Positions 3,587-19,485 of a stretch of 39,383 bases of DNA are shown here, piece after piece. Each line of letters opens with the position of its first letter. Position 1 is the first letter of the stretch. The notes below the pieces were generated by a model. The model saw only the letters and a list, made by a program, of their open reading frames with translations. It did no database searches and was not told the origin of the DNA. A program made the translations under genes and the position numbers. Origin of the DNA: Flavobacteriaceae bacterium (GTDB taxonomy: Bacteria > Bacteroidota > Bacteroidia > Flavobacteriales > Weeksellaceae); contig JAITMJ010000147.1 of NCBI GenBank assembly GCA_031277475.1, forward strand, positions 1-39,383. The letters run 5' to 3'.

Positions 3587-6500
3587 ATGAGACCCAAAGA
3601 AATACTTCCGTGGTTACCTAAAGACAAGCGATTAGATAATTTTTATCAAGGAATTGTAAATTTTGTAGAGGATTATGTAGAGGATTCAACAAAGTCTAAA
3701 AAGTATGTTTATTCTAAAGAAATATTAGACCCCTGTGTTGGTTATATAAAAATCAATTCATGGGAGATGGCGGTATTGGATACAATGTTATTTCAACGAT
3801 TGAGAAAAATATCACAATTAGGGTTAGCTTATCTCGTATATCCATCGTTGAATTATAGTCGTTTTGAACATACAATTGGCACACTAGGGCGATTAAATCA
3901 GGTGTTGACAAGATTGAAAGAAAATGATATAAGATTAAAAGAAAAAGTAAAAAAGAGAAGGAGTGATATTACCGTCATAGACAGATATGAAATTGCTATT
4001 AGAATTGCTGCTTTATTTCACGATGTGGGACATTGTTTATTTAGCCATTTAAGCGAATTTGCAATAAGTGATTTACAAGGTAATGAACAAGATTACACAG
4101 ATGAAGATTTACAAAATGATCAACCACCACCGGCAGAATATTATCCTTCTGTAAAGACCATAGAAAAGATTTTTAACCGAGAGTTTGCAAGGGATAAAGA
4201 AAAATTGAAAATTTTCGAGATATTTTCAATTGCCATATTGGGTACAAAAAAAATTGCTAAATTGATATTTGACAATTTTCCTGAAATTGACGAACACAAG
4301 CTTATAAATATCCCTCGTACTTTAAAAAAGATTACAGATAAAAATGGTTTGTTGCACCAATCTGCTCATTTTATTGCGGGATTGCCTGCTAATGACGAGC
4401 CTGAAACCGTGTTTTTAGCTCAATTAATGAGTAGCGGATTAGATGTGGATAAACTTGATTATATGAGTAGGGAAGAACATTTCTCCGGTATAAAAATTGA
4501 AATGGATTTACAAAGAATTTTTAACAAAATAAATATTTTTCCAAAATCAAAAAGTGAGTTAGCCACTCCATTAAAAAAGTATAGTGATTTTATAAAACAT
4601 ACCTCAAGTGATACACGAAATTATATCTTATTAGGCATCGATAAAGGTGGGCAATTTGCCTATGAAGAATTTTGCGTGGCAAGATTATCTTTATATGAAA
4701 AAATATATTTGCATAAGAAAGTTAGGGCGGCAGAATCTTATATGAAAAAGCAAATAAAAGGACTTATTCAAAATGAAAAAAATTATCAACGAGCACACAA
4801 TTGGTTATACGTACCTGAATCAATTATTGAAAAAAAGATGACTTTTTCAACTTCCGAAATGGTAGTGGAGGATATAGAAATACTCGGGCAAATTACACAG
4901 ATGGGTACAAAAAAAAATGTTGAGACGCATTCTCTATTTTCAGATATTTTTAAAAGACAAATTCCCGACAGAGCATTTGGTTTTGGACCTTCTAATTCAA
5001 AAACAGATAGTCCTATAAATGAAATAGCAATAGACGAGGAAAAAGTAAAAGAATTACAATCTGTTCGTTTATGGGAATTCTTATTATCACAAGAGCAAAG
5101 ACAATTAGAATTATCTGTAATTGAAGAGGCAAAAAAAATAACAGAAGAAATTAAAGATAAAAATGAATATGATTTTTTACCAAAATCAGAAGAAGATTGG
5201 AAAAATATAGAAAAGACATTAGTATTTGACATTCCTAAACCTAATAGAGTTAAACTGGATCCACAAACATTGCATTTTGAAGATATAGGTGCATTAAATA
5301 CAGTAAACTGGACTATTCCTATTGCCAATATCCATATCTCATATCTATTACACAAAATATTAGCATATGTGTATGTAAATCATAGGTTTGTGCCATTAAT
5401 AACTTTGGCCTGTGAAAGAATATTTTATAAATATACACTAAATAACAAAGAAGAGCAATTTATTTTTGACCAAACACAAGCAATCTCAAAAGAAAATCAA
5501 TCAAAGATAAAAAAAATTAAAGATGAACTCGTGGCTGTTGGATTTTATAATACGTGTCCCGAATTGATGCCACTAGATCCGAAATTGACAACAGCAAATG
5601 CTGTTGAATTAATAGAGAATGTTGTTAGAAATCTTAGCTATTTGGAATGTTGTGATTCACCTTCAAAATTGGAAGTTGAAGAATTTTTGAAACAATTTGA
5701 CGAAGATATGCAATTATCAGCTTTGCATCTAATAAGTAATATAAAAGTCCTTTCTCCACAAAAAGAACTGCCAGACATTATCAAAGAAATACGAAATAGT
5801 GAAAAAGTTAGAGATAAAGGAGTTGTAGTGCTTCCACTAGGTAATTACTTAAATAGTTCAAGTAATTTTTATAAACATCTAAAGAATACTTTTAATGAAC
5901 AAAAAATAACATCTTTAAGTTTTGACGATAAAGATTTAAAAGACGAGATAGAGAGAAATGATTACATCTTTCTAATAGATGATAATATCAATTCGGGTAT
6001 TCAGTGTTTTAATTTTATGATGAGATATTTAGGTTATAGTGATAGTGTTATTGAAAAAGATAACAGAAATAAACTATGGTTAAAGAAATATGATAATAGA
6101 ACAGAATGTACACATCCTGCATTAGAAATTAGTAAGAAACTCCGAAATAAAAAATTTGAATTTATTTTTGTAACAGGACACGAAACTTCAAAAAATGAAT
6201 TAAGTCACTATTTGACAAAGTATTGTAAATTGGAACAAGATAATTTTGAAATTACTATCATACATGAAATAAAAAATAATGACAAAATTTTTGATTTAAG
6301 TAATTTAACATATTCTAAAATAGACGATAAAAACTATACCATATTTGGAAAATTAAAGATGGATTTTAGAACTTCGGTAACCCCGGAACAGATTGACAAA
6401 ATAAGTAATAAATTCAGAGAAATTGGTAAACAAGTAGTAAAACAAAAAGGAGTATGTAGAGATTGTGAACAGCCAGAAGAAGACCACGCTTTAGGATACC

Positions 6501-6634
6501 ACAATAGAGAAAATCTTATTGTATTCGTAAATAGCATTCCGACTATGACTTTTACAGCGTTATGGTGTGAAGGTAAATACACCGATAAAAATGGAGATGT
6601 CAAAATATGGAAGCCGTTGATAAAAAGAAAATAA
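3587..6634 (+). CDS. SAMHD1-like HD phosphohydrolase fused to a PRTase-like domain (predicted defence gene)
   Basis: A 1015-residue cytosolic protein. Residues about 45-310 form an HD domain of the dGTPase/SAMHD1 class. Visible motifs are RLRKISQLG (71-79), RFEH (92-95), HDVGH (145-149), FSH (152-154) and SGLDVDKLDY (283-292). The metal ligands H95, H145, D146 and D288 are therefore all present, so the enzyme is probably active on a (d)NTP or related nucleotide. The middle is helical and unassigned. Around 765-830 lies a phosphoribosyltransferase-like domain whose PRPP loop reads LIDDNINSGIQ (796-806). Near the end are a C957-x2-C960 pair and an ENLIVF...TALW motif (975-993). The stop is 10 bp before the SIR2 gene, so the two form an operon. 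Frequent ATA and AAA codons and the AT richness differ from neighbouring lptD and suggest transfer. The exact reaction is unknown. Confidence 0.8.
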   Translation: MRPKEILPWLPKDKRLDNFYQGIVNFVEDYVEDSTKSKKYVYSKEILDPCVGYIKINSWEMAVLDTMLFQRLRKISQLGLAYLVYPSLNYSRFEHTIGTLGRLNQVLTRLKENDIRLKEKVKKRRSDITVIDRYEIAIRIAALFHDVGHCLFSHLSEFAISDLQGNEQDYTDEDLQNDQPPPAEYYPSVKTIEKIFNREFARDKEKLKIFEIFSIAILGTKKIAKLIFDNFPEIDEHKLINIPRTLKKITDKNGLLHQSAHFIAGLPANDEPETVFLAQLMSSGLDVDKLDYMSREEHFSGIKIEMDLQRIFNKINIFPKSKSELATPLKKYSDFIKHTSSDTRNYILLGIDKGGQFAYEEFCVARLSLYEKIYLHKKVRAAESYMKKQIKGLIQNEKNYQRAHNWLYVPESIIEKKMTFSTSEMVVEDIEILGQITQMGTKKNVETHSLFSDIFKRQIPDRAFGFGPSNSKTDSPINEIAIDEEKVKELQSVRLWEFLLSQEQRQLELSVIEEAKKITEEIKDKNEYDFLPKSEEDWKNIEKTLVFDIPKPNRVKLDPQTLHFEDIGALNTVNWTIPIANIHISYLLHKILAYVYVNHRFVPLITLACERIFYKYTLNNKEEQFIFDQTQAISKENQSKIKKIKDELVAVGFYNTCPELMPLDPKLTTANAVELIENVVRNLSYLECCDSPSKLEVEEFLKQFDEDMQLSALHLISNIKVLSPQKELPDIIKEIRNSEKVRDKGVVVLPLGNYLNSSSNFYKHLKNTFNEQKITSLSFDDKDLKDEIERNDYIFLIDDNINSGIQCFNFMMRYLGYSDSVIEKDNRNKLWLKKYDNRTECTHPALEISKKLRNKKFEFIFVTGHETSKNELSHYLTKYCKLEQDNFEITIIHEIKNNDKIFDLSNLTYSKIDDKNYTIFGKLKMDFRTSVTPEQIDKISNKFREIGKQVVKQKGVCRDCEQPEEDHALGYHNRENLIVFVNSIPTMTFTALWCEGKYTDKNGDVKIWKPLIKRK

Positions 6635-6644
6635 TAAAAATAAA

Positions 6645-8162
6645 ATGGAACCAGAAATAAAAGAATTTTTAAAAATCTATGGACAAGCATTGAAAGATAA
6701 TAATGCTACCATATTTGCAGGTGCAGGACTTTCCAAAGCCTCAGGCTTTGTCAATTGGAAGGAGTTAATGCGTGATACTGCTGCAGATTTGGGGTTAGAT
6801 GTCAATAAAGAAACAGACCTGATAGCCATTGCGCAATATCATATCAATGAAAGGCTTGACAACAGGAGTATTATTAATCAAACAATTATCAACCAATTCG
6901 TTAAAGATGCGGAATTAACAGAAAACCACCGTATATTAGCTCGATTGCCCATATCTTCATATTGGACAACTAATTACGATAGTCTAATTGAAATAGTAAT
7001 CAAAGATGCTGGCAAGACAGCAGATGAAAAGAAAACCTCACAAAACATACTGACAACTTTACCCAAGAGAGATACTATTGTTTATAAAATGCACGGCGAC
7101 ATAGGGCAGCCAAATGAAGCTATAATCGCAAAAGAAGATTATGAAACTTATGGAATAAAAAGAGGTGCTTATTCAATAGTGCTTCAATCAGAGTTGCTGT
7201 CAAAAACTTTTTTATTTGTTGGTTTTAGTTTTGATGACCCTAATATAAATTATATTCTTTCTCGCATTAAAAATTTACTCGGAGAAGAATCAAATGCACA
7301 AAGAACACATTATTTTTTTGTACAAAAAGAAAAAAACTCTAAAAAAACAAAAAAACAGAAGTTGAAAATAAAAGATTTGAATCGTTATGGAATTAGAGCA
7401 ATTATTATTAACAAATATGACGAAATTACACCAATACTAAAATTATTGGAGGACTTTTATAAACGCTCAAATATTTTTATATCTGGTGCAGCAGAATATT
7501 TTGAAAAAGACAACCAAAATGAAAATCAGCACAAATTGTTTATTCATTCTTTGGCTAAAAGTATTTTGTCAAATAAGCATAAGATTATTACTGGGAAAGG
7601 GAAAAAAGTTGGAGATGTTGTTATTGATGGAGCTCTTGATTATATGTTTTCGACAAAATATCGGCATTTTGATGAATACATTAAAATGAGACCCTTTCCT
7701 TTGGAATTTGTTAGAGAAGGAATTAGCGAAGAAGAAAAGAAAAAGGAAAAGAAAGAACGTAACACAAAATATCGTGATGAAATGCTTCAAGAAGCAGGAA
7801 TTGCAGTTTTTGTGTATGGAAATAAAAAAGATGAAGATGGCATAAGTATAAAAAATTCCAATGGTATGGAAGACGAGTTCAATATTGCCGTTGAACGAGG
7901 GATTAAGCCTATACCAATCGGAGCAACCGGATTTATGGCAAAACAACTGTGGGATGAAGTTACAAAAAACTTTGACAAATATTATCCATCAAATAAAAAC
8001 AACAAAAAAAAGATGGAGGAAATCAGAAGTTTAATGCAAGAAATAGGAGATGAAGCGACATTTAAAGAACAAATAAACGAAAAAAATAAGGAATATTTTG
8101 AGAAAATTTATGATATTGTAAATGAGATTATTAAAAAATTGAACACAGTTGATTCTTTGTAA
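6645..8162 (+). CDS. ThsA-like SIR2-SLOG protein, predicted NAD+-degrading effector
   Basis: A 505-residue protein with two domains. Residues 1-about 270 are SIR2-like: AGAGLS (25-30) binds NAD, TTNYD (108-112) carries the conserved Asn (N110), and MHGD (149-152) carries the catalytic His (H150). The spacing matches ThsA of the Thoeris system, whose essential residues are N112 and H152. From about 277 (IFISGAAEYF) begins a SLOG domain, with a glycine-rich loop GKGKKVG (317-323) and MEDEF (408-412) followed by an alpha/beta strand. In ThsA the SLOG domain senses a cyclic ADP-ribose signal and activates NAD+ hydrolysis. By analogy this is the killing arm of the operon, while the upstream HD-PRTase protein would sense or make the signal. 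No TIR gene is nearby. Catalysis is well supported; the activating ligand is unknown. Confidence 0.88.
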   Translation: MEPEIKEFLKIYGQALKDNNATIFAGAGLSKASGFVNWKELMRDTAADLGLDVNKETDLIAIAQYHINERLDNRSIINQTIINQFVKDAELTENHRILARLPISSYWTTNYDSLIEIVIKDAGKTADEKKTSQNILTTLPKRDTIVYKMHGDIGQPNEAIIAKEDYETYGIKRGAYSIVLQSELLSKTFLFVGFSFDDPNINYILSRIKNLLGEESNAQRTHYFFVQKEKNSKKTKKQKLKIKDLNRYGIRAIIINKYDEITPILKLLEDFYKRSNIFISGAAEYFEKDNQNENQHKLFIHSLAKSILSNKHKIITGKGKKVGDVVIDGALDYMFSTKYRHFDEYIKMRPFPLEFVREGISEEEKKKEKKERNTKYRDEMLQEAGIAVFVYGNKKDEDGISIKNSNGMEDEFNIAVERGIKPIPIGATGFMAKQLWDEVTKNFDKYYPSNKNNKKKMEEIRSLMQEIGDEATFKEQINEKNKEYFEKIYDIVNEIIKKLNTVDSL

Positions 8163-10631: not shown

Positions 10632-11450
10632 ATGATGATAAATGAGGCTATTTTATCTCAATATCAAAAACTAAATTATACGCTTTCTCTCGAAAGGGAA
10701 AGAGAACTCATCGCCGAATACATCTATTCTACCAATAGTTTGGAAGGAAACCAACTGACTTTGGCGCAAACGAAATCCATCATAGAAAACGGTACAATTT
10801 CCGGCAAGAACATTAAAACCAAAGATTTATTGGAGCAAAGAGGAACTTACAAAGCACTGATGTTTATGCTGAACGCCGTGATTTCCAAAGAACCTCTGAC
10901 GGTTGATTTTATCAAAAAACTGAATTGGCTTTCCATCGGATCGCTTTTTCAAGACGATTATTATTTATCCTACAAACAGCACGGACAAAAATACGGAGAT
11001 TTTAAAGTAAAAAAAAACAAAATTCAAATCACGTTAAGCGGCGGAGAAAAATTCAATATTGAACCTTTGAGCACGCCGGAAAATGTAGAACTGAATATGA
11101 AAACTCTGGTTTCCCAAATCAACAACAGCGAAAAAAATGTGGTGGAGAAAGCCGCTTTTTTAGCACAAGAAATTTGGCTTCATCAGCCTTTTATTGACGG
11201 AAACAAACGCACCGCAAGATTGCTCATTAATTTTCTTACGATGAAAGAAGGATCGCCACTTTTTCCATACACCGAAAAAGGAATTTATTTTAATGATATG
11301 CTCATCGAGCAGTATGTATCTAAAAAAAGCGGGCTGATTCAAGATTTTATAATCAACGCTTTAGAAACCCAAATACAAAAAATAATTTCCGTTTTTTCTA
11401 ATGAAAATCAGCAACAAAAAACATTTAAAGGCTACAGATTTATGCTTTGA
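10632..11450 (+). CDS. Fic-domain protein (predicted AMP-transferase) with N-terminal inhibitory motif
   Basis: A 272-residue Fic protein. Fic enzymes usually attach AMP to hydroxyl side chains of target proteins. An inhibitory helix motif (S/T)xxxE(G/N) is present as T34-NSL-E38-G39, which places it in the class with an N-terminal internal inhibitor. The Fic loop reads H-QPFIDGNKRTAR. The FxDGNxRxxR part is intact, but the residue directly before PF, where the catalytic His normally sits (HPF), is Gln, with His one position earlier. The start has no good Shine-Dalgarno, as is common in this phylum. It stands alone between repeats and an ABM-domain gene. Activity is uncertain because of the shifted His. 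Confidence 0.82.
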   Translation: MMINEAILSQYQKLNYTLSLERERELIAEYIYSTNSLEGNQLTLAQTKSIIENGTISGKNIKTKDLLEQRGTYKALMFMLNAVISKEPLTVDFIKKLNWLSIGSLFQDDYYLSYKQHGQKYGDFKVKKNKIQITLSGGEKFNIEPLSTPENVELNMKTLVSQINNSEKNVVEKAAFLAQEIWLHQPFIDGNKRTARLLINFLTMKEGSPLFPYTEKGIYFNDMLIEQYVSKKSGLIQDFIINALETQIQKIISVFSNENQQQKTFKGYRFML

Positions 11451-12214: not shown

Positions 12215-13579
12215 TTAATTTAAAATCTTAAAGGTTTTATTTGAAATTTTTAAGATATAATTTCCTTTTTGGTGTTGGAAAGGCAGTTTGTTTACGCCTT
12301 TTCGCAGATTAATTTTCGATTTTGAAATCAGTTTTCCGTCCATAGAATAAAGTTCCGCAGAAAATTCGTTTTCAAATTTTTCTCCGCTGTAAATGATTTC
12401 CAACTGATTGTTTCTCACAGGATTAATGATTTGGAACGTTTCCTTTAACACAGAATCTGTTCCGGCAGTAACGCCATAAGTGAATTCGTGTGTAAGGCTT
12501 TTAGTACCGGAAGTTACGGTAGTCTTCCAAGTTCCGGTTTGGTCAAAGTAACCTTCCGGAAAAGTCCAACCCCAAGCAGACCAACCATAAAGTGTATCCA
12601 TCGTATAACTGGCTTGTGCTGCAACGGTATTGTCCGGACGAGTGAGTATTATACTGAAAATTTCGCCCACCGGAATGTCTGTTAAATAGCCATAAACGTA
12701 AACCGTTTCTCCGGTGTTGAAATTGTCTTTAAAATTCGTAGTTTCCTGAACGCCGCAACCGTTGTCCAAACTTATTGCTGCGCTGTGCGTCAATACGGCA
12801 TTAATTTTCGGGTTGAGATACGGTTTTTGGGTTTGCCACCAAGAATCTGTGTCGGAAGGCGAGGTATAGCAAGGTCCGACGAAAGCGGTGTAAGGATCCA
12901 CGAGTTGGTTGTTGCTGTTGTAAACTTCAAAATGCAAATGCGGTCCTGTAGAATTTCCGGAACTCCCGACAATTCCCAAAAATTCTCCTGCGGCTACGCT
13001 GTCGCCGATATTTTTTGTCGTCAGCGAACCTTCTTTCATGTGTCCATACCAAGTTACGCTGCCGTCGGCGTGTTGCAAATAAACGGCGTTCCAAACCAGA
13101 TTGCTCATTTGGCACCTTCTGTCGTATTGTCCATCCATTTTTGCAACGATGACTCCGGGTGCTGCCGCCACAATTTCCGATTGATTGTTGTCCATTTGAT
13201 ACCAACCGAAAGGAAACGTGTAAATATCAACTCCGGCGTGTCCGTTATAAGTTTTTTGTCCGCAATTATAGTCTCGAATTTGTCCGGTTGCGTCGTGATC
13301 CACATAATTAGAAATTCCCCAAATTTCGTTGTAAGGAGTTCCGGCTGCTTTTTTTACAGGCCAAATAAAAAGCGGATGAGCCAGCGTTTTATCCTCCGTA
13401 AGTTTTCCTTGTTGCTTTAAAATTGCTCTATTTTCGGCAATCATTTCCTTGATAACAGTACGCTGTTCATCGGTGATGCAATCGGTAGGTTCCACATTGA
13501 AACCTTTTCCGACCATCGTTTGCGAAAAACATACTAAATACGAATTTAGCAGTAAAATAGTAATGATTTTTGTTCTCAT
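12215..13579 (-). CDS. Secreted M23 metallopeptidase with T9SS sorting domain
   Basis: A 454-residue exported peptidase. A signal peptide (IITILLLNSYLVCFSQ) is followed by a LytM/M23 domain: GHAGVD (H114, D118), WYGH (H180) and GPHLHFE (H214, H216) supply zinc ligands and catalytic histidines. M23 enzymes cut glycine-containing or cross-linking peptides of peptidoglycan or other proteins. A beta-rich segment (about 275-375) precedes the C-terminal domain FQIINPVRNNQLEI...YSMDGKL...GNYILKI, a type A T9SS sorting signal, so the protein should cross the outer membrane and be surface-attached or released. Its promoter carries the 25-bp element shared with the surface protein and the histidine kinase. 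Confidence 0.92.
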   Translation of the reverse strand: MRTKIITILLLNSYLVCFSQTMVGKGFNVEPTDCITDEQRTVIKEMIAENRAILKQQGKLTEDKTLAHPLFIWPVKKAAGTPYNEIWGISNYVDHDATGQIRDYNCGQKTYNGHAGVDIYTFPFGWYQMDNNQSEIVAAAPGVIVAKMDGQYDRRCQMSNLVWNAVYLQHADGSVTWYGHMKEGSLTTKNIGDSVAAGEFLGIVGSSGNSTGPHLHFEVYNSNNQLVDPYTAFVGPCYTSPSDTDSWWQTQKPYLNPKINAVLTHSAAISLDNGCGVQETTNFKDNFNTGETVYVYGYLTDIPVGEIFSIILTRPDNTVAAQASYTMDTLYGWSAWGWTFPEGYFDQTGTWKTTVTSGTKSLTHEFTYGVTAGTDSVLKETFQIINPVRNNQLEIIYSGEKFENEFSAELYSMDGKLISKSKINLRKGVNKLPFQHQKGNYILKISNKTFKILN

Positions 13580-13604: not shown

Positions 13605-13656
13605 CAAAGTTGAGCGATTTTTCAATACAAGTCAATCCCCAGAAATAGTGATTTTT
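13605..13656 (-). promoter_or_regulatory. Promoter of the M23 gene with shared 25-bp element
   Basis: On the minus strand the element containing TCACTATTTCTGGGGATTG (13632-13656) ends in TTG. After 20 bp comes CAACTTTG (13605-13612), one base from the -7 consensus, and the ATG follows 25 bp later. The 25-bp element is identical at 17366-17390 and 17489-17513. Confidence 0.7.
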
Positions 13657-13745
13657 CGAGGTGCGAGATTCGAGATACGAGATGCGAGGTTCGGGGTTCG
13701 GGGTGCGAGATTCGGGTTTCGGGTTTCGGGTTTCGAGATGCGAGT
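13657..13745. repeat. GC-rich heptanucleotide repeat array
   Basis: Some 12 units of seven bases follow each other (CGAGGTG, CGAGATT, CGGGGTT, CGGGTTT and similar), fitting CGRGRTT with small changes. The array abuts the far end of the 25-bp promoter element. The same CGAGGTGCGAG junction occurs next to the element copy at 17478-17513. Confidence 0.75.
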
Positions 13746-13829
13746 TTGTCAATCTTTTAATTTTAAAATTTGCAGGGATAAAAATTTATCCCCATTTTTG
13801 TATGGTCTTTTGATGAAAAATATAAAATT

Positions 13830-14066
13830 ATGCCTACGTTGTTAAATATTTTCGGTTTGCGTTTTTTCTTTTATTCGGAGGAACATTTGCCTATTCACGT
13901 TCACATTGAGAATGCGGATGGAAAAGCGAAAATAAATTTAGTTCCTGAAACGGAAGTTGTTGAAAATAAAAACATTAAACCAAAAGATTTGAAAAAAGCG
14001 ATTGCGATAATAGAATTATACAAAGATGATTTTATCAGTGCTTGGAAAGAATATCACGGGGAATAA
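13830..14066 (+). CDS. DUF4160 family protein
   Basis: A 78-residue protein of the DUF4160 type: N-terminal FGLRFFFYSEEHLPIHVHIEN with the H-x-H pair typical of the family, then DGKAKINL and a C-terminal helix LKKAIAIIELYKDDFISAWKEYHG. It is full length. The family is often encoded next to a DUF2442 protein, as here (gap of about 100 bp). A toxin-antitoxin-like role has been suspected for such pairs, but I cannot support it from this sequence. Confidence 0.8.
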   Translation: MPTLLNIFGLRFFFYSEEHLPIHVHIENADGKAKINLVPETEVVENKNIKPKDLKKAIAIIELYKDDFISAWKEYHGE

Positions 14067-14168
14067 TGAAAAATATAAAATGAAACACGCATGACAAAAT
14101 ATTGACACACAAACGAATGATTGTACAAAGTGTTCCATCTGACCGCTGAAAAAATAAAATATAAACAG

Positions 14169-14591
14169 ATGAAAACAATTAAAAGAATTTGGTTTTCCGA
14201 GAGCAGAATTTTTATGAAAACAGAGCAAGGCGAAATGTTCAGCAGACCGCTTGAAGCCTTTCCGCTATTGAAAAACGCGAGTGAAACGGAACGCGAGAAT
14301 TTTGTAATCGGGAAATTTAAAGATGATGTTCGTTGGGAAATTTTGGATGAAGACCTTCACATCAGCAGTTTTTTTGAAGAAAACGAACCGAAAAAAAACG
14401 AAATCGGGGAAGTGTTTTCGCGCTATCCGCAAATTAATGTTTCGGCTTTTGCGGCACAAATCGGGATTAATAAAAGTCTTTTGGCAAAATACATTTACGG
14501 CATAAAAACCCCGAGCGAAAAACGCAAAAAAGACATCGAAAACGGCTTGCACGAATTTGCCGAAAAACTTTTGCAGGTGCAGTTGGTTTGA
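14169..14591 (+). CDS. DUF2442 domain protein with C-terminal helix-turn-helix-like region
   Basis: A 140-residue protein. Residues 1-75 fit DUF2442 (IKRIWFSESRIFMKTEQGE...LEAFPLLKNASETERENF...DVRWEILDEDLHISSFF). Residues about 88-130 (FSRYPQINVSAFAAQIGINKSLLAKYIYGIKTPSEKR) look like a Cro/XRE-type helix-turn-helix, so it may bind DNA and regulate its own operon with the DUF4160 gene. I start at ATG 14169, since the ATG at 14121 adds 16 residues foreign to the family. Confidence 0.75.
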   Translation: MKTIKRIWFSESRIFMKTEQGEMFSRPLEAFPLLKNASETERENFVIGKFKDDVRWEILDEDLHISSFFEENEPKKNEIGEVFSRYPQINVSAFAAQIGINKSLLAKYIYGIKTPSEKRKKDIENGLHEFAEKLLQVQLV

Positions 14592-14667
14592 GGTTTTTAG
14601 AATATTTGATTTTTAAAATAACCGCCACACGAAAGGATTTGTGCGGAAGGTGAAAATTATTACAATT

Positions 14668-15003
14668 ATGATACGAATAGATATTAATGACCCGAATTTA
14701 ACATTACGAGATAGACCCACCAATTGGGGAACAGGGGTTTGGCTTTATAATGGAGTGCTATTTACGGGTATTGTATATGAGTACTTCCCTAATACTACAC
14801 AGTTTTCTTCAGAAAGTGAATATGTGGATGGAATTTTAGATGGCAGACAAGTAGAATACTGGCCAAACGGAAAAATAAAAGATGAGTATTTTGAAAAATA
14901 TGATGGTGTTTATGGTTCGTTTAAAGAATGGAACGAGCAAGGTGTCTTAATAACCCATCAAATATATGACAGTAATGGAAACTTAATAGAGGTTATAATT
15001 TAA
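14668..15003 (+). CDS. YwqK/MORN-repeat-like protein
   Basis: A 111-residue protein with MORN-like repeats: GVLFTGIVYEYFPN, SESEYVDGILDGRQVEYWPNGKIKDEYFEKYDGVYGSFKEWNEQG and LITHQIYDSNGNL. This is the pattern of proteins often called YwqK-family antitoxins. Such repeats form beta-sheet surfaces, and members may act as immunity proteins, but no toxin is next to it. I start at the ATG at 14668; a GTG at 14641 also is open. Directly after its stop, a second copy of its first codons begins (15004). Confidence 0.65.
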   Translation: MIRIDINDPNLTLRDRPTNWGTGVWLYNGVLFTGIVYEYFPNTTQFSSESEYVDGILDGRQVEYWPNGKIKDEYFEKYDGVYGSFKEWNEQGVLITHQIYDSNGNLIEVII

Positions 15004-15150
15004 ATGATACGAATAGATGCAGATGACCCCAAATTTATGTGCATTGCCCCCGCACAAATCCTTTTGTGTAGTTTTCTGTTCAATCTGTTTCGGGGGGATT
15101 TTTGTGACTTTGGCGACGATTATAATTTGCTTTTTCGATTTTTTGCATAC
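15004..15150 (+). pseudogene. Truncated tandem copy of the YwqK-like gene start
   Basis: ATGATACGAATAGAT, the first five codons of the preceding gene, recurs at 15004, followed by similar codons (MIRIDADDPKF against MIRIDINDPNL). After about 12 codons the similarity ends and the frame becomes hydrophobic and phenylalanine-rich, ending soon after. It looks like the left edge of a lost paralogue fused to unrelated DNA. Confidence 0.5.
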
Positions 15151-15198
15151 TGATTTTTTAGGGACTTTTGTGACTGATATGACTTTTGTCTTTCTCAA

Positions 15199-15230
15199 AC
15201 TTTGACAAAGATTTTCAACTTTGTCAAAGT
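15199..15230. repeat. 12-bp perfect inverted repeat
   Basis: ACTTTGACAAAG (15199-15210) and CTTTGTCAAAGT (15219-15230) are exact reverse complements around an 8-bp loop. There is no T tract, so it is more likely an operator or the end of a rearranged element than a terminator. Confidence 0.6.
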
Positions 15231-15235
15231 GTCAA

Positions 15236-15302
15236 AAACCCGAACCCCGCATCTCACACCCCGAACCTCGCACCTCGCACCCCGAACCCCGCACCCCGAA
15301 CC
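15236..15302. repeat. GC-rich heptanucleotide repeat array
   Basis: Seven-base units CCCGAAC, CTCGCAC, CCCGCAT and similar run across this stretch. They are the reverse complement of the array at 13657-13745. Confidence 0.7.
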
Positions 15303-15340
15303 TAAAAAAAATCCGTCTCGCGTTTTGTGGCGAGACGAAT
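15303..15340 (-). terminator. Terminator of the T9SS surface protein gene
   Basis: CGTCTCGC (15314-15321) pairs perfectly with GCGAGACG (15330-15337). On the minus strand a long T run follows (A at 15304-15311 on the plus strand). It lies 35-70 bp beyond the stop of the surface protein gene. Confidence 0.85.
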
Positions 15341-15374
15341 TTTCTAATAAAAAAGATAACTACAAAATTTTTAT

Positions 15375-17318
15375 TTATTCTTTTATAAATTTAATGGATT
15401 GATTATCAACATTTAAAATATAAATTCCTTTCTGAAAACCGGAAACATCCACAGAATTTCCATTGAACATTTTTACCAATTTTCCCGAAATATCGTAAAT
15501 TCTCCTCCCCCCGACCCCCTCCGAAGGAGGGGGAGTCAGCGTTGTTCCCCCTTTGGGGGAAAGGGGGCTTATGTACAAAATATTTTTCACAGGATTCGGA
15601 TAAACGGCAATTTTATTTTTTGAAACTTCTGCGGTGCCCATCAAAATCAAGCCGAATTCGTCTGCACCCATATCCGGAATGATGGTGCTTCTGGTTTCTC
15701 CGTCAATGTCCGTAGTTGCGCCGCCGGGAATTAATGTTCCCAAATTGTCAAGCGTAGGATTGTCGGCTAAATTCAAATGCAAATTGGAGAAGGAAGTGAA
15801 CACCGGTAAAATATTTTTGGAATTGGTATTTCCACCGAAACCGGCTTGCAATGCCGCCAAATTTGCTCTCGCCGAACCGATAAATCCGAGATTTTGTGTG
15901 GAATAATAATCGTTGTAATCAATATTGCTGAAAATATTGTTGTTTGAATTCACACTATAAATGGCGTAGCGATTGCCTATGGTTTGAGAATTAACGAAAA
16001 TATTATTTCTCAAATCGAGGGCTCCGACTGCCGTAACGCCCGAACCAATCATCATCGCCGCCGTAATGCCTTCGGGTGCAAATTGATCGAGTCTCATATA
16101 GATAGTGTTGTTATAAATTTTATAGCCGGTTCCGGAGTTTACATAAATTCCCCAACCATTATCGCTAAATGCAGTGCCGTCCCAACCGTCTGCAGCGATG
16201 TCGAAAATAAAATTGTTGAAAATATTGTTGGTTCCTGTCGTATTACTTGCATTCAGCATAATACCCACAGCCCCGTAAGGACCGTTTTGTTTGATGAACA
16301 TAATTTGGTTGTTCGTAATAGACACGCCTGTAGTTGGGTTAGTGCCATTGTCCAAAAGCCAAATACCGGCAATCGAAACATTATTGATTTGTGTTAAATC
16401 TGCAATGGTATTGTCGGAAATCGTAATATTGGAGTCTATGATACTGGGAGCAACCAACATTCCCATCACGAAATTGCTGTTATGAGTGATATTGTGAATC
16501 TCGTTGTTTTTCACTACCGCATTTTTTGTTCCGGGACCAATCCAGAATCCTGTTTTTTGGTTCGTAACAATGCCGGACGGAATATTTCCAACGTTGTTAT
16601 TTTCCAACAAAACGCCATCAATACCCTCGGTGTAAATGCCCGTACCGGATAAAGCATTTGTGCCTGAAGCGTCTAAATTAGAGTTTTTCACGGTGAAATT
16701 GGTGTTGTTCGGATCCGCATTTGCCCGAGCAAAAATTCCCATAAACGCCTTTTGAACAGAAACATTGTCTATCGTTACATCTTTGAAATCTCCCGGTGCT
16801 GTGTTTGTACTATTAGTAAGGATAATGGCGGAACTTAATTGAGTGCCATTGATAAATACTGCATTTTTCAAGGTAATATTCGTGTTTCGGACACCTGCGG
16901 CAGAAGCCACATGAAGCACTTGCGATGAACTTGTTCCGGTATTGTTAAATGTTAAATTACGCGTAGTTCCGTCTGCGGTGTTCGAGCCGTCTATCGTAAC
17001 ATTACTTCCATTAATCTTTACCAATGCGGCACCTGCTAAATTTCCCGAAATCGTAGCCGTAGTTCCGGCGGTCGGTTTTATGGTAACAGAAGTGTAAGTA
17101 GTGCTGTTGTTCAATACTGCCGCCGCAGTTTCCGTAGTATTTCCCGAAACGTTGATTTGGATAACGCCCTGATGTGTTCCCGCATTGATGGCATCAAACG
17201 ATGCTTTCAAAGTGGTATAGTTCGCTGACGGCGTTCCCGATGACGCAGTCACATTAATTGCCTGTGCAAAATTCATTACAGAGACAATGATTCCTAAAAA
17301 TGTAAAGATTTTTTTCAT
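15375..17318 (-). CDS. T9SS-exported beta-helix surface protein with repeat element in its sorting domain
   Basis: A 647-residue protein with a signal peptide (KKIFTFLGIIVSVMNFAQA). The main part is rich in Asn, Thr and Gly and shows the pattern of a right-handed parallel beta-helix (repeats such as NVTIDGSN, NITLKNAVF, DVTIDNVSV, NFTVKNSNL, NITISDNTI), usual for adhesins or polysaccharide-binding surface proteins. The C-terminal domain VYPNPVKNILYIS...RIYDISGKLVKMF...GIYILNV is a type A T9SS signal. Between ILYIS and RIYDISG about 22 residues (PLSPKGGTTLTPPPSEGVGG) come from a GC-rich palindromic DNA element at 15502-15570. The start at 17318 matches the signal peptide and lies 20 bp after the -7 box; an upstream in-frame start at 17369 would overlap the promoter. 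Confidence 0.85.
   Translation of the reverse strand: MKKIFTFLGIIVSVMNFAQAINVTASSGTPSANYTTLKASFDAINAGTHQGVIQINVSGNTTETAAAVLNNSTTYTSVTIKPTAGTTATISGNLAGAALVKINGSNVTIDGSNTADGTTRNLTFNNTGTSSSQVLHVASAAGVRNTNITLKNAVFINGTQLSSAIILTNSTNTAPGDFKDVTIDNVSVQKAFMGIFARANADPNNTNFTVKNSNLDASGTNALSGTGIYTEGIDGVLLENNNVGNIPSGIVTNQKTGFWIGPGTKNAVVKNNEIHNITHNSNFVMGMLVAPSIIDSNITISDNTIADLTQINNVSIAGIWLLDNGTNPTTGVSITNNQIMFIKQNGPYGAVGIMLNASNTTGTNNIFNNFIFDIAADGWDGTAFSDNGWGIYVNSGTGYKIYNNTIYMRLDQFAPEGITAAMMIGSGVTAVGALDLRNNIFVNSQTIGNRYAIYSVNSNNNIFSNIDYNDYYSTQNLGFIGSARANLAALQAGFGGNTNSKNILPVFTSFSNLHLNLADNPTLDNLGTLIPGGATTDIDGETRSTIIPDMGADEFGLILMGTAEVSKNKIAVYPNPVKNILYISPLSPKGGTTLTPPPSEGVGGRRIYDISGKLVKMFNGNSVDVSGFQKGIYILNVDNQSIKFIKE
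15502..15570. repeat. GC-rich palindromic element inside a coding sequence
   Basis: CCCCCTTTGGGGGAAAGGGGGC (15547-15568, given here in parts: CCCCC, TTTGGGGG, AAAGGGGGC) belongs to the same family as 38227-38249 and 38413-38434. A second palindrome, CCCCCTCC-GAA-GGAGGGGG, lies at 15515-15533. The element keeps the reading frame of the surface protein gene open. Confidence 0.75.
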
Positions 17319-17338
17319 TCTTAATAAAAATTTTTCTG

Positions 17339-17390
17339 CAAAGTTGGGATGTTTTTTAATGCGTGTCAATCCCCAGAAATAGTGATTTTT
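17339..17390 (-). promoter_or_regulatory. Promoter of the T9SS surface protein gene with shared 25-bp element
   Basis: The 25-bp element (17366-17390) reads on the minus strand into TTG, then 20 bp, then CAACTTTG (17339-17346), then 20 bp to the ATG at 17318. Layout and spacing equal those of the M23 promoter. Confidence 0.7.
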
Positions 17391-17402
17391 GGCTGTTGGC
17401 TT

Positions 17403-17488
17403 TTGGCTAATTGCATGTCACGCTGAGCAATGTCATCCTGATCCTGTCGAAGGGCTGTCGCACCCCGAACCTCGCACCTCGCACCTCG
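17403..17488. repeat. Dispersed TGTCACGCTGAGC/CTGTCGAAGG element and heptanucleotide array
   Basis: TGTCACGCTGAGC (17416-17428) and CCTGATCCTGTCGAAGGG form a degenerate copy of the element near 10495 and 33081. The heptanucleotide array CACCCCGAACCTCGCACCTCG follows. Both sit between the two divergent promoters that carry the 25-bp element. Confidence 0.6.
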
Positions 17489-17540
17489 AAAAATCACTAT
17501 TTCTGGGGATTGATTTTTTTAATTTAAACCCTTTACTTTG
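17489..17540 (+). promoter_or_regulatory. Promoter-like region of the histidine kinase gene with shared 25-bp element
   Basis: The 25-bp element (17489-17513) ends in TTG at 17510-17512. After 20 bp comes TTACTTTG (17533-17540), one base from the -7 consensus. Only 4 bp then remain to the ATG, so the transcript would be leaderless if this is the start site. The copy is an exact inverted repeat of 17366-17390. Confidence 0.6.
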
Positions 17541-17544
17541 CAAA

Positions 17545-19485
17545 ATGAAAAAATATATTCTCATATTTTTATCGGTTTTGTGGTGTTCTACGCTGTTTGG
17601 GCAAAACAATTCCACAATAGACAGCCTGCAACGGCTCATCAAAAAGTCTAAAAATGATACCAATAAAGTGAATTTGCTTTTTGATTTGATGAGCGAATAT
17701 TCCAACAACAACCCTAAAAAAAGCAGAGAACTTATAGAGGAAGCCGGAAAATTGAGCCATAATTTAAAATATCAAAAAGGGATTATTCGGTACAATGAAA
17801 ATATGGGATTTATATATACTCAAAAATCCAAATATGATTCCGCAATATGGCATCTTAACCGAGTGCTTGATTTATATGAAAAAGAAAAAGACTCGCTGAA
17901 TATCGGATATACGCTGATTAGGATTGGTGAAAGATATAATTATAAAGGAGATTATGAAAACGGACTTCGATATATCACCAATGCAAGAAAAATATTGGAT
18001 AATCACGATATTCCGCAGATAAAAAAAGCACAGATAGAATTCATGGTTGCCAGTTCTTACAATGGAATGTTGGATTATAAAAATGCTATAGCACACGGCG
18101 AAAAAGCAGCAGCCATATACAAAACAACCGATGCGGAATTTAGTTTAATGGCAACACTCAACAATTTGGGAGAATATTATCAAAAAGCGGAAATGTTTTC
18201 GGAAGCAGAAAAAACTTATATGGAAGCATTGGCTATCTGCCGAAAATTAGATCGTCCCTTCGAAGAAGTCATTATTAATGAAGGTATGGCAAACCTTATG
18301 CTGCTGAAAAATCAGCCTGCAGAAATGAAGAAATATATAGACAGAATATTCGAGATTTTAGCAACACCCGATTTCTCAAATATTTATGATGAAATGTTAG
18401 CCCATCAATATCTCGCACAATATTATTATATCACCGGTAATTTAACAAGGGCTAAAGAAGAAGCGGAAAAATCTTTGAAAATGGCTGAAAGCGATAATAA
18501 TACCGAAGTAAAAATAACCATTCTTGATTTATTAGCCAATATAAGTGCCGCACAACACGATTTCCCGACTTCATTGAAATATTCCGGAGAGGTAGAAAAA
18601 TTGCGTTCCGGTATTTTCAACGAAAACCTCGCACAAAAAGTCGCCGATATGCGCACCAAATACGACACCGAGAAAAAAGAAATCCAAATAAAATCTCAGC
18701 AAACCGAATTAAAACAAAAAACAAAAATCAATACCATTCTCATCATCGCAATAGCATTGTTAATCCTCGTTTTAGCGTTGATATACCGAATGTACAGAAA
18801 CAGACAAAAATTACAACAAATAAAAATAGCCGAACTCGAAAAAGAAAAACAACTATCTGCCGCACAATCTCTGCTGAAAGGTCAGGAAGAAGAAAGAGGA
18901 AGAATAGCCCAAGACCTTCACGACGGACTCGGCGGTTTGCTGAGCGGTGTAAAATTACAATTAGGAGCAATGAAAGGAAATCTCGTATTAACGGAAGAAA
19001 ACGGTGCACTGTTCAATCGTGCCATCGGAAAATTAGATGAATCGATCTCGGAAATGCGCCGCGTAGCGCACAATATGATGCCGGAAGCATTGTTAAAACT
19101 CGGTTTGCAACAAGCCTTGCAAGATTATTGCGAAAACCTCAATATTTTGCAGAAACTCCGCATCAATACAGAATTTCACGGTTTGGAACAAAGAATGGAA
19201 TCCTCTACGGAAGTCATCATTTACCGAATCATACAAGAATTGCTGAACAACAGCATCAAACATTCCGGTGCTACATCCGTTTTGCTACAAGTGATGAGGC
19301 AAGAAAATACGCTTTCCGTAACGGTGGAAGACAATGGCAAAGGTTTCGATGTAGCCGAAACTGACGAAAAATCCGGAATCGGTTTGCAAAATATCCGCAG
19401 CCGCGTAAACTATTTGCGCGGAAAAATCGACATCAAATCCGAACCCGGAAAAGGAACCTCGGTTTATATGGAATGTGAGGTGTGA
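17545..19485 (+). CDS. TPR sensor histidine kinase (HisKA_3/NarX-LytS type), orphan
   Basis: A 646-residue membrane sensor. A signal peptide (KKYILIFLSVLWCSTLFGQ) leads a periplasmic part with TPR repeats (about 40-380). A coiled stretch follows, then one membrane span (INTILIIAIALLILVLALIY). The cytosolic kinase begins with EEERGRIAQDLHDGLGG, in which H459 is the predicted phosphorylated His of HisKA_3, and ends with an HATPase_c domain (ELLNNSIKHSG, VEDNGKGFD, GIGLQNIRSRV). Such kinases normally pair with a LuxR-type response regulator encoded next door, but none is here: secA follows. The start at 17545 fits the signal peptide. The gene carries the same upstream element as the M23 and surface protein genes. 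Confidence 0.9.
   Translation: MKKYILIFLSVLWCSTLFGQNNSTIDSLQRLIKKSKNDTNKVNLLFDLMSEYSNNNPKKSRELIEEAGKLSHNLKYQKGIIRYNENMGFIYTQKSKYDSAIWHLNRVLDLYEKEKDSLNIGYTLIRIGERYNYKGDYENGLRYITNARKILDNHDIPQIKKAQIEFMVASSYNGMLDYKNAIAHGEKAAAIYKTTDAEFSLMATLNNLGEYYQKAEMFSEAEKTYMEALAICRKLDRPFEEVIINEGMANLMLLKNQPAEMKKYIDRIFEILATPDFSNIYDEMLAHQYLAQYYYITGNLTRAKEEAEKSLKMAESDNNTEVKITILDLLANISAAQHDFPTSLKYSGEVEKLRSGIFNENLAQKVADMRTKYDTEKKEIQIKSQQTELKQKTKINTILIIAIALLILVLALIYRMYRNRQKLQQIKIAELEKEKQLSAAQSLLKGQEEERGRIAQDLHDGLGGLLSGVKLQLGAMKGNLVLTEENGALFNRAIGKLDESISEMRRVAHNMMPEALLKLGLQQALQDYCENLNILQKLRINTEFHGLEQRMESSTEVIIYRIIQELLNNSIKHSGATSVLLQVMRQENTLSVTVEDNGKGFDVAETDEKSGIGLQNIRSRVNYLRGKIDIKSEPGKGTSVYMECEV

Follow-up and report, generated by a model that had tools for sequence, protein, structure and literature searches.

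The Escherichia coli regulator NarL has the consensus operator TACYYMT-NN-AKRRGTA. At the E. coli ogt promoter, NarL activates from a site that is centred at -44.5 and abuts the -35 element (PMC7419079). Two other systems are relevant here. FimR, from the FimS/FimR system of Porphyromonas gingivalis, acts directly on the promoter of a surface structure (PMC1974823). PorX/PorY-SigP is a two-component control linked to the type IX secretion system (T9SS), and its kinase and regulator genes lie apart (PMC4800418). Here, we describe a 25-bp element that occurs three times in a 39,383-nucleotide stretch of DNA (the window) from a Flavobacteriaceae bacterium (assembly GCA_031277475.1, contig JAITMJ010000147.1, positions 1 to 39,383). 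Judging from its sequence and location, the element is probably the site of a NarL/FixJ-type activator, with a local regulon that would include a sensor kinase gene.

Three identical copies and their promoters

An earlier reading of the window (the sequence-only reading) had reported three identical copies, each facing a gene, and all three are present. Copy 1 is at 13632..13656 on the minus strand, with a 16-bp core, TCACTATTTCTGGGGA, at 13636-13651 and a TTG at 13633-13635. It faces the gene for an M23 metallopeptidase of 454 amino acids with a T9SS type A sorting domain (12215..13579, minus strand). Copy 2 (17366..17390, minus strand; core 17370-17385, TTG 17367-17369) faces the gene for a secreted surface protein of 647 amino acids with a T9SS sorting tail (PF18962/TIGR04183; 15375..17318, minus strand). 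Copy 3 (17489..17513, plus strand; core 17494-17509, TTG 17510-17512) faces the gene for a sensor histidine kinase of 646 amino acids with TPR, HisKA_3, and HATPase_c domains (17545..19485, plus strand); secA is the next gene. These gene identities agree with the sequence-only reading. As it had also said, all 25 bp of copy 2 recur without change in inverted orientation as copy 3; the two arms are 98 bp apart.

In the direction of the gene, each unit consists of AAAAA-TCACTATTTCTGGGGA-TTG followed by 20 bp and a -7 box, which is CAACTTTG for copies 1 and 2 and TTACTTTG for copy 3. This spacing, noticed earlier, is exact in all three copies. The boxes lie at 13605..13612 (minus strand, M23-T9SS gene), 17339..17346 (minus strand, surface-protein gene), and 17533..17540 (plus strand, kinase gene); the kinase's ATG is 4 bp further on. 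The distance from the core to the TTTG of the box is exactly 27 bp in all three. The core, TCACTAT-TT-CTGGGGA, can be read as a degenerate inverted repeat whose 7-bp arms flank a 2-bp gap.

Both forms of the box are one mismatch from TAnnTTTG, and TTG/-7 promoter features are present at every copy. The -33 TTG is the upstream box of an ordinary Bacteroidota promoter. The flavobacterial -7 box TAnnTTTG covers -12 to -5 (PMC9723704), so the core would be at about -51 to -36, with its center near -43.5. (The position of the box would also place the TTG at about -35 to -33, and the first base of the kinase mRNA would be located at about the kinase start codon.)

A genome-wide motif search, which the sequence-only reading had proposed as a check, returned only these copies, all at promoters. 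Specifically, AAAAATCACTATTTCTGGGGATTGA has three exact copies in the whole 2.99-Mb genome, each oriented toward a gene, and no fourth site in that genome at up to 3 mismatches. The reversed control pattern gave zero matches, and the chance expectation for the 19-mer at up to 3 mismatches in the window is 0.01. An Rfam search of the element region gave no meaningful match, and neither did an exact scan of viral contigs for the element give any.

Related sites, kinases, and regulators in other genomes

The comparison with relatives was run at the level of the family; the bacterium's own genus is a single species among the genomes compared. When we searched 59 relatives for the 19-mer at up to 3 mismatches, the matches were mostly coding, and G018 stood out. 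Contig C94 of this genome has a non-coding TCCGTATTTCGGGGGATTG with TTTG exactly 27 bp on, and the match was obtained without any promoter constraint. This site faces a lipoprotein gene and is divergent to a gene for a TPR-HisKA_3 kinase, which is followed by a NarL-type regulator gene. The upstream region of the same kinase gene also contains TCCCCTTTTTTGGGGA.

A search pattern that included the -7 box led to contig C40 of G091. This contig encodes a TPR-HisKA_3 kinase and a NarL-type regulator and, after them, has three putative operators within about 10 kb: TCTCCAATTTTGGGGATTG before the gene for a T9SS-tail protein, TCTCCCATTTTGGGGATTG before a lipoprotein gene, and, farther along, TCTCCTGTTTTGGGGATTG before another lipoprotein gene. 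TTTG is at 27 bp in each. (The pattern left room for 3, 2, and 1 mismatches to TTTG at these sites, respectively, and no such mismatch occurred.)

We also searched 320 genomes with an improved core. In six genomes of genus g20 (G123, G199, G207, G236, G268, and G275) and in G011, TCCCTAAATTTAGGGATTG or close forms of it lie directly before a NarL-type regulator gene, and the site, as TCCCTAAATTTAGGGATTG or TCCCTAATATTAGGGATTG, is a perfect palindrome. Where the locus is annotated (G123 and G011), this regulator gene sits behind a kinase gene. In G136 and G186, TCCCTAAATTTAGGGATTG or close forms precede genes for T9SS-tail proteins. The fetched loci held 25 further non-target, non-coding matches, of which 11, from about 5 independent loci, have TTTR at exactly 27 bp. 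Across the relatives, 3 to 7 of the 7 arm positions pair, and most sites have at least 5. The sites are linked to regulators: they immediately precede the regulator gene or lie next to a kinase-regulator pair. The regulator in the bacterium's own genome is unlinked.

Some promoters of genus g20 (L092, L160, L161, and L088) have sites in tandem, spaced by about 24 bp (for example, TACCTAAAATCAGGTA then TACTGATTTTTGAGGATTG), and in at least three of these four loci the tandem sites precede small lipoprotein genes. As to candidates that we rejected, a first guess from the relatives, TACTGATTTTTGGGGATTG, matched almost entirely in coding sequence, and matches such as AAATCCGCAGAAAATTTCTGCGGATTTTTT were dropped because they resemble intrinsic terminators.

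More distant sites came from a scan of 84,980 species for ATTTCTGGGGATTG-N{20,25}-CTTTG, which allowed gaps of 20 to 25. It returned 38 stretches, the majority of them coding and spread over all gap lengths. The six convincing non-coding matches in Bacteroidota all have a gap of 23, which corresponds to 27 bp from core to TTTG. Two of these (L111 and L116, from Bacteroidales) precede an outer-membrane-protein gene and have 2 mismatches over 20 bases relative to the core in the window. L118 precedes a TonB-receptor-like gene, and L125, from Polaribacter, has no gene facing the site in the expected way. The remaining two (L131 and L133, from Bacteroides) have a second operator before another gene (with a hemerythrin domain, as tested in L133), and then a LuxR-type regulator gene. 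We left uncounted two other matches that look non-coding: L122 (gap 23), which reads like coding sequence, and L128 (gap 20), which is from the cyanobacterium Dolichospermum.

In L133 (5790-5945, minus strand) and L131 (6870-7026, minus strand), the same operator and -7 box are followed by a short stretch that has no long reading frame and ends in CCCCGC...GCGGGGACTTTTTT. This is likely a small RNA of about 100 nucleotides beside the LuxR-type regulator gene. The putative small RNA of L133 had no meaningful match in Rfam.

A weight matrix built on 12 sites from other genera alone put all three window copies at the top of its ranking. The copies score 21.0 bits. The matches that overlap them on the reverse strand follow at 14.1, and the highest-scoring unrelated site has 13.6; no site on either strand of 380 kb sampled from the genome came within 1 bit of the copies. 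A caveat is that the right half-site is partly circular, because the seed patterns were taken from the window. The left half-site and the linkage to regulators are not.

The pattern TMCC-N8-GGKA is found upstream of 14 of 51 TPR-HisKA_3 kinases and of 3 of 68 other genes (p = 4e-4, which is optimistic because some of the kinases are closely related to one another). When only kinase upstream regions were used and TTTR stood for the box, distance statistics lacked the stringency for a decision. Together, the identical geometry of the three promoter copies and the relatives' sites, which lie at the same distance before genes for NarL-type regulators, T9SS cargo, and lipoproteins beside TPR-HisKA_3 kinases, support what the sequence-only reading had suggested: an operator or upstream promoter element common to the three genes, and a small regulon that joins surface proteins with the kinase. 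What we can add is that the binder is likely of the NarL/FixJ class and that the window does not contain the cognate regulator.

We next consider the kinases and their potential partners. TPR-HisKA_3 kinases that have NarL-type partners are common in this family. A relative of the window kinase is present in 58 of the 80 genomes searched, and most TPR-HisKA_3 kinases of the relatives have a neighboring NarL-type regulator. Within the 380 kb sampled from its own genome, there is an orphan NarL-type regulator on contig C19. It shares 54% identity with the regulator that accompanies the kinase of G085; of the kinases from other genomes, the G085 protein is the one most closely related to the window kinase. 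The C19 protein is our best candidate for the window kinase's partner. Its recognition helix, TVDSHRKN, is the same as in G018. In those kinase promoters that have a site, a serine before the conserved histidine of this helix pairs with TCC-type half-sites and a threonine with TACC-type half-sites. This pattern is only a lead, because it is post hoc and involves about 11 lineages and one ambiguous site (L225). The regulators of g20 and G091 (VNTH and VSTH), with TCCC-type sites, do not fit it in a simple way. In a separate observation, one of the kinase's paralogues in its own genome (contig C10, L047) has CCCCAGAAAACAGGGG 17 bp before TTTG, a distance shorter by roughly one turn of the helix than the 27 bp in the window.

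Alternative explanations and the surrounding DNA

The copies border on repeats. A heptanucleotide array (13657..13746) abuts copy 1, outside the operator, and the 98 bp between copies 2 and 3 (17391..17488) are unrelated repeat filler that includes a CGAGGTGCGAG array beside copy 3. The base at which CGAGGTGCGAG meets the element is identical for copies 1 and 3, and a different repeat, TTGGCTGTTGGCTTTTGGC, abuts copy 2 (a refinement of the sequence-only reading, which had noticed the heptanucleotide beside two copies), so every copy is at a repeat edge. With repeat filler upstream of all three, the element could be the conserved end of the heptanucleotide arrays, as that reading had proposed as a rival view. 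This is scarcely credible, as copy 2 abuts another repeat, in relatives the core is equally far from the -7 box with no such arrays beside it, and the genome's seven further TCGAGGTGCGAG places, which are other CGAGGTGCGAG arrays, lack the element. These points largely refute the idea. (An operator would have been doubtful if most copies lay away from promoters or were always accompanied by the arrays; we found neither.) Instead, we infer that repeat filler overwrote dispensable intergenic DNA as far as the edge of the functional unit. Another explanation is that copies 2 and 3, as a perfect inverted repeat, are the ends of a 148-bp miniature inverted-repeat transposable element and that copy 1 is a solo end. 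A look-alike, TCCCCAAGTTTTGGGATTGATCC, does occur twice in G315: on one side both occurrences share their flank and a transposase-like frame, and on the other side the sequence differs. We set the G315 matches aside as probable insertion-sequence ends. But the element has only 3 copies in 2.99 Mb, at one locus; the sequence shows no target duplication on their flanks, and there is no transposase. The spacing to a -7 box before a gene is identical for all three copies, and this promoter position is conserved in relatives, so a transposable element is very improbable.

If a promoter segment had been duplicated recently and had no regulator of its own, copies 1 and 2 would be paralogous promoters that are alike through recent descent. 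Their spacers are indeed alike at 11 of 19 bases (shuffle p = 0.002), and their identity extends beyond the 19-bp motif into the flanking A run, which suggests some local copying. However, these spacers are about 40% diverged while the 25 bp are unchanged, and the spacer of copy 3 is unrelated to that of copy 2 (5 of 19 bases alike). Given this divergence, wholesale recent copying of promoters does not explain the conserved 25 bp. The core also recurs in other genera and orders, and overall we consider this explanation unlikely. Finally, the element might be the site of a repressor or of a regulator from another family. For instance, a DUF2442 protein whose C-terminal part resembles a helix-turn-helix by eye is encoded at 14169-14591, between copies 1 and 2. 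But the promoter region of the DUF2442 gene has a different palindrome, GGGATAAA-AA-TTTATCCC, relatives with the operator have NarL regulators alongside, and a center near -43.5 resembles activation by NarL. A repressor or another family of regulator is thus decidedly unlikely.

Several observations weigh against a NarL/FixJ-type activator site. No response regulator gene adjoins the window kinase and its cognate regulator is not in the window; regulators were sought in only about 13% of the genome (380 kb of stretches). Both paralogues of the kinase in its own genome (on C10 and C62) lack the element, and only about 1/4 to 1/3 of the relatives' kinases have a recognizable site. The window's core is a weak palindrome (4 of 7 pairs). 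It agrees with the E. coli NarL consensus in 10 of 14 positions, a level of agreement shared by 0.4% of the 16-mers in the window. Several of the relatives' sites came from patterns that already held the distance to the -7 box. Lastly, the 25-bp identity is longer than the 19-bp motif, which suggests that local duplication partly accounts for the sameness of the copies.

Other features of the window and its genome are worth recording. The palindrome GGGATAAA-AA-TTTATCCC (13775-13792) precedes a DUF4160-DUF2442 gene pair (13830-14591), and is perhaps the autoregulatory site of this toxin-antitoxin-like pair. At 15504-15570, a G/C-rich filler repeat is in frame within the T9SS sorting tail (ISPLSPKGGTTLTPPPSEGVGGRRI), and a heptanucleotide array on contig C151 (L072) is likewise beside or inside a T9SS-tail-like frame. 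At 3587-8162, a PRTase-CE protein adjoins a SIR2-STALD protein, which resembles an anti-phage defense pair. A Fic/DOC-domain protein of 272 amino acids is encoded at 10632-11450.

A proposed circuit and its described counterparts

We return to the activator site. The core, TTG, and -7 box would form an operator-promoter unit, in which the core abuts the -33 TTG of an ordinary TTG-20 bp-NNNCTTTG promoter. A TPR-HisKA_3 kinase would normally phosphorylate a response regulator of the NarL/FixJ type, and a dimer of the phosphorylated regulator would bind at about -51 to -36, adjoining RNA polymerase. Three promoters would be activated: those of the genes for the M23-T9SS peptidase, the T9SS surface protein, and the kinase. 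As one of the targets is the kinase gene, this would be a local regulon with feedback on the kinase. That the regulator binds, that it activates and does not repress, and that the window kinase is paired with the C19 regulator are inferences.

A broader proposal, to which we give about even weight, is that these operators belong to a NarL-type class found throughout the phylum Bacteroidota, always 27 bp from the -7 box, and connect TPR-HisKA_3/NarL systems to small groups of nearby genes for T9SS cargo and lipoproteins. The choice of TCC or TAC half-site would follow the serine or threonine before the conserved histidine of the recognition helix, and in the window's genome the regulator would have split from the kinase and operators. 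The fixed geometry is a signature that permits target genes to be predicted genome by genome, with short pieces of DNA that can be tested. The role of a large and little-studied family of sensor kinases would become testable, and the expression of T9SS cargo would be tied to a two-component input distinct from PorXY-SigP. We found no published description of this operator in the literature searched, which was covered in part.

Among described systems, the E. coli NarL operators of the 7-2-7 type (ogt and yeaR) resemble the element in being 16-bp inverted repeats with 7-bp arms and a 2-bp gap (a degenerate repeat, with 4 of 7 pairs, in the window), and in abutting the upstream promoter box with a center near -44. 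In both cases a NarL/FixJ-type binder (putative, for the window) has a HisKA_3-type kinase as its partner. The window differs in having TCACTATTTCTGGGGA instead of TACYYMT-NN-AKRRGTA, a Bacteroidota promoter, and secreted surface proteins and a kinase as its predicted targets. FimS/FimR shares a TPR-type sensor kinase with the window, although the window kinase's match to the FimS family is below threshold. FimR targets fimbrial genes, with no 7-2-7 site given in the available part of its description, and in the window's genome the regulator gene is not adjacent. PorX/PorY is similar in its link to the T9SS and in its separately encoded kinase and regulator. But PorX has a PglZ domain and acts via an extracytoplasmic function (ECF) sigma factor on the genes for the T9SS machinery, whereas the window's promoters are of the TTG/-7 type, not the ECF type, and its predicted targets are T9SS cargo.

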